Of a stretch of DNA of 64,000 nucleotides, positions 38,370 to 60,096 are shown piece after piece (within the stretch, counting starts at the first letter, position 1; each line of letters begins with the position of its first letter). This DNA is from Sulfurovum sp. GTDB taxonomy: Bacteria > Campylobacterota > Campylobacteria > Campylobacterales > Sulfurovaceae. The position numbers and the translations under genes are program-made. The notes under the pieces are model-generated. The model had not been told where the DNA came from. It saw only the letters and a list, made by a program, of their open reading frames with translations, and did no database searches. The DNA lies in assembly GCA_027082955.1 (NCBI GenBank), contig JALWTA010000001.1, forward strand, positions 1 through 64,000. The letters run 5' to 3'.

Positions 38370-38714
38370 GTGTACCCCATGAAAAAGAAAGAGAGACTCT
38401 ACATCAGTGACCTTCTGGAAGATCCTGCATTTACCTACCCCTCCTACTATACGCTCTCCTCTGCCATGATGAAAAACGAGATGCTGCACAGTGCCATCAT
38501 TGCCCTGCACAGTTTTGATTTTTCCTACTATGAGGTCCCAAAAAGCTTCGATGATGTCTTTACCATGTTTCAAAGCGGTACCTTTCCTATCTTTAAAGAG
38601 AAGTATATTGTCGGATATTTTGGCGGGAAGATGATGTATCTTGAAAGTAACGGTTGGAAAGGTATGCCCGCTACAGAAGCACTATTCAAGCTGGAAAACT
38701 GGCTTGTATATTAA
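38370..38714 (+). CDS. Hypothetical protein (114 aa)
   Basis: A 114-residue soluble protein rich in aromatic residues (PAFTYPSYYTLSSAMM, ALHSFDFSYYEVPKSFDDVF). GTG 38370 has GAGGAG six bases upstream; the ATG three codons on is too far from it. No known domain is recognised. It is linked to the cyclotransferase-like gene by a three-base gap, so the two are likely cotranscribed. Confidence 0.6.
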   Translation: MYPMKKKERLYISDLLEDPAFTYPSYYTLSSAMMKNEMLHSAIIALHSFDFSYYEVPKSFDDVFTMFQSGTFPIFKEKYIVGYFGGKMMYLESNGWKGMPATEALFKLENWLVY

Positions 38715-38775
38715 ATAAGTTACACAAAAAACAATTATTATTTTTCAATTAAGACAAATTTTATCTTATTTAGGT

Positions 38776-38781
38776 TATACT
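38776..38781 (+). promoter_or_regulatory. -10 box of the candidate small RNA
   Basis: TATACT at 38776-38781 places the transcription start at about 38788, the first base of the closing stem of the RNA described next. A loose -35 (AAGACA, 38751-38756) lies 19 bp upstream. Confidence 0.5.
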
Positions 38782-38787
38782 ACGACA

Positions 38788-38906
38788 TATCTTAGGTATC
38801 GACAAAGACTTTTTTCATTCTTCCTCCTTTTTAAAAGTTTTTGTTGTATCGACTACCCTCGTACATGATCTATTCTATAGCCGTCGGTACCTAAGATTAC
38901 TTTTTT
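38788..38906 (+). ncRNA. Candidate small RNA with CU-rich loop
   Basis: A folded RNA of about 115 nt in a gene-free stretch. The 5' and 3' ends pair in a 15-bp stem with one mismatch (ATCTTAGGTATCGAC at 38789-38803 with GTCGGTACCTAAGAT at 38883-38897), followed by a T-run (38901-38906). Inside, CAAAGACTTTT (38803-38813) pairs with AAAAGTTTTTG (38833-38843), presenting a loop that contains TTCCTCCTTTT, complementary to a Shine-Dalgarno sequence. A third short stem (TGTATCG with CGTACA) completes a three-way junction. The design resembles anti-Shine-Dalgarno small RNAs such as H. pylori RepG-type regulators (analogy only). Confidence 0.6.
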
Positions 38907-39183
38907 ACTCCAAAATCCCTCAAAACCACATCTTTTTCAGCTAAATCGGACAAAACCTATCTTTTTTTCAAAAAACCTGCTATAATGCGGCACTTTTCTG
39001 CAAGAGTGTACTGAACTCCTTTATTTGAGACACACTGTCTCCTCTATTCCACGCTTCAAACGTGTGACACCAGTTTGGTATCGGTTGCATAAAACAGGGT
39101 TTTACGCCTCTTACATACCGTTGGAACTTTCCAAACGAAGCAAGACAACTTCAACACCGACCATTTTAACACAAAGACAACAC
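38907..39183 (+). promoter_or_regulatory. Promoter and long 5' leader of the DEAD-box gene
   Basis: The stretch between the small RNA and the helicase start contains TATAAT at 38981-38986. A start near 38993 would give an untranslated leader of about 190 nt. No gene was found in it. Long leaders are common on cold-shock-type helicase mRNAs, and one might be self-regulated here. Confidence 0.5.
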
Positions 39184-40650
39184 ATGACATTTTCAGATTT
39201 TAACCTCAAAGATACGATCCTCACAGCAGTAACCCAAGCAGGATTCAAAGAACCAAGTCCCGTACAGAAAGAGGCGATCCCACTTGTGCTTGAAGGGCAT
39301 GACATGATCGCACAGGCACAGACAGGAACAGGAAAAACCGCAGCATTCGGACTGCCTATGATGAGTATGATGAAAGCAGACGGTTCGGTCGAAGGGCTTG
39401 TCATCGTACCTACCCGCGAACTTGCAATGCAGGTGAGTGACGAGCTTTACCGTTTTGGTAAACTCTCAGGACTCAAAACCGCAACCGTTTACGGAGGTAC
39501 CGCTTATGGCAAACAGATCGAGCGTATCAAACAGGCTTCCATCGTTGTAGCCACTCCGGGACGTTTGCAAGACCTTCTCATGAGTGGAAAGATCAAGCTC
39601 AACCCCAAATTTGTCGTACTTGATGAAGCCGATGAGATGCTCGATATGGGCTTTCTCGATGAGATCAAGAACATCTTTACCTTCCTGCCTAAAGAGCGCC
39701 AGACACTGATGTTCTCTGCAACCATGCCTAAAGGTATCAGAAGACTTGCAGAGGAGATCCTTGAAAATCCCAAAACAGTTTCCATCACCAAGTCTGAGAG
39801 CACAAACTCCAAAATCATACAATACTACTATGTAGTACAGGAACGTGAAAGAGACGATGCACTGGTCAGACTGATAGACTATAAAAACCCGGACAAGTGT
39901 ATCATCTTCTGCCGTATGAAAAAAGAGGTTGACAGACTGGTTGCCCACCTTACCGCACAAGGCTTCAAGGTCAGCGGTCTGCATGGCGACATGGAGCAGA
40001 AACAGCGTGAAGTGACCATCAGAGCCTTTAAAAGCGGTGGTATAGACATCTTTGTAGCAACCGATGTGGCAGCACGTGGACTCGATGTCAATGATGTTAC
40101 CCATGTCTTCAACTACCACATTCCGTTTGATTCAGAAAGCTATGTACACCGTATCGGACGTACCGGACGTGGCGGTAAAAGCGGCGAGGCGATCACATTG
40201 GTCAGCCCCAATGAGCTGCGTACCATCAAACGCATCGAAAAAGATGTCGGTGCAAAACTCATCACACAGGTCATCCCTACCCGCATAGAGGTACAGAACA
40301 GCCGTCAGGATGAGCTCATTGCCAAGATTGCCAATACACAGATTACCGACAACGCCATTGAACTGGTCAAGACCCTCCAGCACGATCTGGACATTGTTAC
40401 CATTGCACATCTTTTAGCAAGTATGATACAGAATGACAATGCGGTAAAAGGAAAAGATATTATTGGTCTTGGGCTTGAAGAGGTAGAATTGCTCATAGAG
40501 CGTGCCATGCAGCATAGAGGCAATGACAGAGGCAGAGGACGCGGAAACTACCGTGGCGGAAACCGACGCAGAAACAGCGGCGGGGGCAACAGAAACAGTC
40601 GTAACGGACGCAACAGCAGAAACGGTGGAAGAGGCAGTCAGAGAGATTGA
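39184..40650 (+). CDS. DEAD-box RNA helicase (RhlE/DeaD-like)
   Basis: A 488-residue helicase with all DEAD-box motifs: Q motif FSDFNLKDTILTAVTQAG, I AQTGTGKTAAFG, Ia PTRELAMQV, II VLDEADEMLDMGF, III FSATMPKGIRR, V ATDVAARGLDV and VI YVHRIGRTGRGG. A helical linker and an Arg/Gly/Asn-rich tail (RGRGNYRGGNRRRNSGGGNR) follow, typical of RNA-binding. It unwinds RNA, likely during ribosome assembly or mRNA decay. I chose ATG 39184, where the Q motif begins, rather than a longer frame whose upstream part has no conservation. Confidence 0.93.
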   Translation: MTFSDFNLKDTILTAVTQAGFKEPSPVQKEAIPLVLEGHDMIAQAQTGTGKTAAFGLPMMSMMKADGSVEGLVIVPTRELAMQVSDELYRFGKLSGLKTATVYGGTAYGKQIERIKQASIVVATPGRLQDLLMSGKIKLNPKFVVLDEADEMLDMGFLDEIKNIFTFLPKERQTLMFSATMPKGIRRLAEEILENPKTVSITKSESTNSKIIQYYYVVQERERDDALVRLIDYKNPDKCIIFCRMKKEVDRLVAHLTAQGFKVSGLHGDMEQKQREVTIRAFKSGGIDIFVATDVAARGLDVNDVTHVFNYHIPFDSESYVHRIGRTGRGGKSGEAITLVSPNELRTIKRIEKDVGAKLITQVIPTRIEVQNSRQDELIAKIANTQITDNAIELVKTLQHDLDIVTIAHLLASMIQNDNAVKGKDIIGLGLEEVELLIERAMQHRGNDRGRGRGNYRGGNRRRNSGGGNRNSRNGRNSRNGGRGSQRD

Positions 40651-60004: not shown

Positions 60005-60096
60005 TCCTTTGTGCGGTCTGGCGATCTTTTCAGGAAAAGACCCATGACTTTCTGTCCTTGCTTCACAACAAGTTTAGCTTTTAACATTGGTACCCG
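60005..60096 (-). promoter_or_regulatory. Probable c-di-GMP-I (GEMM) riboswitch ahead of the histidine kinase
   Basis: Minus-strand leader of the kinase gene. From a -10 TATAAT (60108-60103) the RNA contains AAACUUGUU-GUGA-AGCAAGGAC (a stem with a GNRA tetraloop), then AGAAAGUCAUGGGUCU and AGAUCGCCAGACCGC. This order aligns closely with the GEMM-I core (AAACC-GAAA-GGGACGCAAAGCC, GGGUCU, AGACAGCC). The second helix GGUCUUUUC/GAAAAGAUC is strong; the closing helix P1 is weak. Downstream, CUCCUU (59998-59993) can pair with the AAGGAG ribosome-binding site (59930-59925), suggesting translational control. Confidence 0.6.

Follow-up and report, generated by a model that had tools for sequence, protein, structure and literature searches.

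Small RNAs whose C/U-rich loops cover Shine-Dalgarno (SD) sequences include the LhrC family of Listeria and RsaE of Staphylococcus aureus. Both are unrelated in sequence and structure to the Sulfurovum RNA described here, and LhrC is multicopy. The pairing loop of RepG, from Helicobacter pylori, is C/U-rich as well. RepG shares with the Sulfurovum RNA its origin in Campylobacterota, the lack of Hfq and the presumed action in trans, which RepG exerts on an mRNA 5'-UTR (PMC8322730). Its target is a homopolymeric G repeat before tlpB and not an SD sequence, and homology between the two RNAs was compared through Rfam only. Another small RNA of the Campylobacterota, CncR1 of H. pylori, is transcribed from a promoter bound by the response regulator HP1043, also called HsrA (PMC5253667, PMC8322730). 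CncR1 differs in being 213 nt long, in deriving from the cagP 5'-UTR and in targeting fliK, and it has no known structure in common with the Sulfurovum RNA.

By analogy, the nearest described RNA in its mode of action is NfeR1 (alpha-r14) of Sinorhizobium. NfeR1 is about 120 nt long and Hfq-independent, has in its unpaired loops an anti-SD motif that is rich in C and U and ultraconserved, with stems that vary, and is preceded by a conserved regulatory element (PMC10746234). The Sulfurovum RNA, as predicted from its sequence, resembles it in size, in the conserved anti-SD loop, in the variable stems and in the upstream element. The two differ in architecture: NfeR1 consists of three hairpins, each with CCUCCUCCC, whereas the Sulfurovum RNA does not carry this motif in each of three hairpins and has one enclosing three-way junction with a single, nearly invariant UUCCUCCUUUU loop. 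They also come from different phyla, and no Rfam match links them. Since architecture and sequence differ and no model matches, the Sulfurovum RNA is not filed in alpha-r14. Anti-SD small RNAs are themselves already known; the Sulfurovum RNA is a new family among RNAs.

Structure of the RNA

The window is a stretch of 64,000 nt from a Sulfurovum contig. Its + strand at 38788-38906 (119 nt) folds with an MFE of -30.1 kcal/mol, compared with a mean of -14.2 for dinucleotide shuffles (z -6.22), and none of 200 shuffles was equally stable. The minus strand of the locus gives a weaker fold (z -3.58). When the sequences of six relatives were folded singly, all six beat their own shuffles, with z values from -3.5 to -8.6. 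The fold of the first 111 nt is a three-way junction (Table 1). Its closing stem, P1, has the 15 bp of the original prediction, one of them a U-G wobble. The other two stems came out differently: P2 forms 10 bp (38804-38813 with 38833-38842) instead of 11 and encloses a loop of 19 nt (38814-38832), and P3, for which 6 bp had been claimed, is made of 4+3 bp with one bulge. The predicted structured small RNA is borne out, on the + strand, by the fold, the covariance model and the covariation of P1, and from these comparisons a structured small-RNA gene at this position is strongly supported.

Table 1. Features of the small-RNA locus, in window positions.
Feature	Positions	Strand	Evidence
Small RNA gene, ~111 nt	38788-38898	+	covariance model 101.4 bits; fold z -6.22
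Candidate HP1043/HsrA/CosR-type operator ATTAAGACAAATTTTATCTTA, overlapping the -35 region	38748-38768	+	73/75 homologues
-10 box TATACT	38776-38781	+	-10-like hexamer in 75/75 homologues: at -13 in 60, at -12 in 10
P1 closing stem, 5' arm	38789-38803	+	fold and covariation
P1 closing stem, 3' arm	38883-38897	+	fold and covariation
P2 hairpin, 10 bp, bearing the CU-rich loop	38804-38842	+	~73% of cells paired across the family; register drifts
Anti-Shine-Dalgarno loop ATTCTTCCTCCTTTT	38817-38831	+	core TTCCTCCTTTT at 38821-38831, nearly invariant in 75 homologues of four genera
P3 hairpin, loop CTACCC	38845-38865	+	fold; inner pairs ~80% paired, double-sided changes
Six-T run 3' of the RNA; may be its 3' end, in this genome alone	38901-38906	+	sequence; not conserved

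Searches with Rfam 15 at gathering and relaxed thresholds assigned the RNA to no family. The sole match up to E 10 lies on the minus strand (DUF2815 RNA, 20 bits, cut-off 41.2). The 6S model (RF00013) matched neither the RNA nor any sequence in five Sulfurovum genomes; since the model also fails in 6 of 14 control genomes, Sulfurovum may still have a 6S gene elsewhere. Elsewhere in the window, a c-di-GMP-I riboswitch aptamer (Rfam RF01051, 53.9 bits) is found on the minus strand at 60009-60088. No earlier description of a Sulfurovum small RNA turned up in the literature searched.

Homologues and covariation

A DNA search of 60 relatives yielded 25 clear homologues within the genus, whose structure-blind alignment (A1) was used to build a covariance model. 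The model matches 60 of 78 Sulfurovum genomes, the sister genera g26 and g27 and, more weakly, g32. The RNA is normally present in a single copy per genome, and the few second matches are either weak or antisense hits to the same gene. In a 399-genome sample of the order nothing convincing was found beyond the family except one contig in a genome of family f14. Another Campylobacterota bin, assigned to Sulfurovum, has the identical RNA and 99% identity over the 1.5 kb upstream; this match is therefore best read as a binning error or a stray contig. Matches in Clostridia, Bacteroidetes and others, with weak or no model score, were rejected as chance pattern matches.

In alignment A1, 99.4% of P1 is paired and double-sided changes are seen in 5 of 13 pairs. 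A second, model-fitted alignment (A3) includes the other genera in 72 distinct rows. This alignment leans towards the model; in it, 98.6% of the P1 cells are paired and 10 of 13 pairs show double-sided changes. The covariation score of the whole structure in A3 is 0.373, compared with 0.169 for shuffles, none of which reaches it in 500 trials, and at most 0.103 for slid controls. Compensatory change had been set beforehand as the check on the stems, and for P1 it was found in the model-fitted and in the structure-blind alignment. P2 and P3 are kept across the family, with drift in register and length. By sequence comparison, the locus is a real small-RNA gene, uncatalogued before and conserved in Sulfurovum and three sister genera, in which a covarying stem closes a three-way junction, a loop that hardly varies is left single-stranded, and a promoter of its own and a fixed operator lie upstream.

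Outside the loop, the RNA is rich in C and poor in G (28% C, 11% G). A second CCYCC is present in 25 of 75 RNAs, three times the 8 seen with shuffled sequences, and TACC occurs outside the loop in 51 of 75 RNAs versus 19.5 shuffled. At six loci of g32 the P3 loop is C-rich (CCTCCC, CCCCC, CTCCTCCCC), in the manner of a second loop for pairing.

Promoter and operator

The -10 box sets the predicted start of transcription at about 38787-38788, which is the first base of P1, as originally predicted. Upstream of it, the motif TTAAGA-N8-TTTATC starts 37-40 nt before the RNA in the 73 copies that carry it, and both its halves are essentially invariant. About 30 further sites of this motif were found in 11 genomes, versus 2 for the reversed control. 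They precede tpx (thiol peroxidase), cytochrome c, thiC and other genes, the peroxiredoxin and the cytochrome c having been identified by Pfam. At four loci, in several Sulfurovum genomes, the motif lies just upstream of an apparent TPP-riboswitch leader (CTCTCGGGGTGCC) of thiC.

For HP1043 of H. pylori the published binding site is ttTAAG-5bp-tTTAAg, located at about -42 to -26. The regulator activates the cytochrome c553 promoter (PMC8345958), and the genes of its regulon respond when translation is arrested (PMC5253667). The Sulfurovum operator is longer than this consensus. Its ATTAAG-ACAAA-TTTTAT, at about -40 to -24, agrees with the first half of the consensus and, in the second, with 3 of the 4 key bases. 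The genome encodes an HP1043/CosR orthologue (E 2.9e-77 to 2hqr, 1.3e-91 to 8uvx), with a DNA-binding domain nearly identical to that of 8uvx. The first half-site thus agrees well and the second only in part, which makes the probable control of the RNA by HP1043/CosR an inference.

The anti-Shine-Dalgarno loop and its candidate targets

Conservation within the RNA is highest in the loop. Its 11-nt core is nearly invariant over the four genera, with the flank AUUCUU held mainly in Sulfurovum. The loop contains CCUCCUUU, which we take to be the anti-SD sequence of the 16S rRNA 3' tail, and thus complements AAAAGGAGG. As a sequence, the anti-SD loop of the original prediction is present. The further claim that it could block ribosome binding on many mRNAs holds in part: eight genes have AGGAGGAA as their SD, but the 12-nt complement of the loop, AAGGAGGAAGAA, occurs in this genome nowhere but in the RNA gene itself. 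Pairing would therefore extend over 8-11 nt, to strong SDs. In other genomes the sites of the 12-nt complement are sporadic and non-recurring (e.g., at the start of a murC-like ORF) and include no conserved target. As expected of an SD, AAAAGGAG is enriched in the genome (201 versus 105 in the reversed control); no enrichment was seen for AGGAGGAA (48 versus 65).

The eight genes are plausible ones, each a long ORF with one of the 48 AGGAGGAA sites at SD distance. Pfam searches with the first 70 residues identified a NiFe hydrogenase large subunit, a FadL-like protein, a 4Fe-4S protein and a hemerythrin; from our own reading, the candidates presumably also include a lipoprotein, an AMMECR1-like protein, an outer-membrane lipoprotein and a TAT-signal protein of the same operon as the 4Fe-4S protein. 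On another contig (G000:C45, locus L323, 2208-7265), an iron-sulfur/membrane/molybdoenzyme-like operon has three genes, each with a very strong SD (AAGGAGGAAG, AAAGGAGGTC, AAGGAGGAAT). The pairing energy of the loop with six TIRs of candidate operons ranges from -12.8 to -19.6 kcal/mol. The mean for 48 window TIRs is -8.2 kcal/mol, not appreciably better than the -7.8 of shuffled loops, so that an indiscriminate effect on a wide range of mRNAs is not shown. Judging from these pairing predictions, the loop may plausibly act on a small set of strong-SD mRNAs.

Hfq was absent in 11 Sulfurovum genomes, in searches that detected the positive controls. In the proposed mechanism, an essential response regulator of the HP1043/HsrA/CosR type would switch transcription of the RNA together with the tpx and cytochrome c genes. 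The loop would pair with the SD of mRNAs bearing a strong AAGGAGGAA-type ribosome-binding site and block the initiation of translation without Hfq, and P1 would protect the ends of the RNA. Once turned on by the stress regulator, the RNA would probably cover ribosome-binding sites and silence the genes behind them. The candidate targets would be the NiFe hydrogenase large subunit, the iron-sulfur/molybdoenzyme-like operon, the FadL-type outer-membrane protein, hemerythrin and an outer-membrane lipoprotein. The reading as a whole, that of a free-standing, trans-acting RNA of ~111 nt that serves as an Hfq-independent anti-SD small RNA with HP1043/CosR as its candidate control, is considered fairly probable.

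Genomic context and alternative explanations

The six-T run, which the original prediction placed after the last stem, starts 3 nt after P1. The run is present here, yet at least 6 T in any 8 nt after P1 occur in only 15 of 75 homologues, and a scan for intrinsic-terminator patterns found none in the RNA region. Because the run is not conserved, an intrinsic terminator is doubtful, and the 3' end would probably be set by processing or Rho. On the 5' side, the immediately neighbouring gene in 49 of 75 loci (38370-38714 of the window, + strand) encodes a conserved protein of ~113 aa without a Pfam family.

The genes that follow the RNA bear on whether it is a cis-acting 5' leader or attenuator, here of a DEAD-box helicase. 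The helicase gene (39025-40650) is downstream on the same strand in the window and in four related loci. Across the homologues, however, the downstream genes vary in family and strand, with products that we take to be TruD-like, ClpA/B-like, GGDEF/EAL-like, RodA-like or a DEAD-box helicase; many are convergent and stop 0-30 bp past P1. In g32 the order differs, and the RNA is immediately preceded, at 72 bp, by the gene of a helicase from the same broad cluster. This variation marks the RNA as an independent gene and refutes the leader as a general explanation, to which very little credence can be given; an ancestral link between the helicase and the RNA is possible. Its own promoter, the lack of a fixed downstream gene and the conserved structure are what is expected of a gene for a trans-acting small RNA. 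That the minus strand is the functional one, with AAAAGGAGGAAGAATG as ribosome-binding site for a very short ORF (MKKVFVDT), is scarcely credible: the ORF exists in this genome and in a few of its close relatives, but most homologues have GAATAAAAA, without a start codon, and the promoter and operator face the + strand, which also folds better. The mini-ORF is thus contradicted by the lack of a conserved start. Equally hard to credit is an inverted repeat acting as DNA, such as a MITE or a protein-binding palindrome. The outer arms of P1 are indeed nearly invariant inverted repeats within the genus (CTTAGG/CCTAAG), but these pairs change in concert in g26, g27 and g32, and the element is single copy, with a covarying interior and a conserved promoter upstream.

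Two further explanations accept the RNA as real and differ on what it does. A diverged housekeeping RNA (6S, SRP, tmRNA) or a member of another catalogued family would agree with the single copy, the conserved promoter and the closed terminal stem. It is nevertheless very unlikely, given that the + strand has no Rfam match even at E 10 and that the size, junction and CU-rich loop are unlike those of 6S. Less remote, though still unlikely, is that the loop binds a protein which normally recognizes the 16S rRNA 3' tail or CU-rich RNA, and that the RNA works by titrating this protein or as an RNP scaffold instead of pairing with mRNAs. Such binding would account for a core that is almost invariant though no conserved mRNA target was found, and for its mimicry of the 16S tail. 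The second CU-rich stretches sit at differing places among genomes, and these variable positions are more readily explained by redundant pairing motifs, as the anti-SD small RNA would have it, than by a single site for a protein.

Implications

Sulfurovum is a major sulfur-oxidizing lineage of vents and sediments. For the study of its small RNAs, the locus provides a covariance model that is ready for use, together with a defined promoter and a set of candidate targets. A bolder and tentative reading, to which a low probability is attached, is that the RNA is a lineage-specific global throttle of translation: a copy of the 16S 3' tail under CosR/HsrA that would compete with 30S subunits, so that strong-SD mRNAs for respiratory and envelope proteins would be contested in chemolithoautotrophs without Hfq. 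The family also offers a test case for whether small RNAs of the anti-SD type evolved separately in Campylobacterota that lack Hfq, with the essential regulator CosR/HsrA in control.
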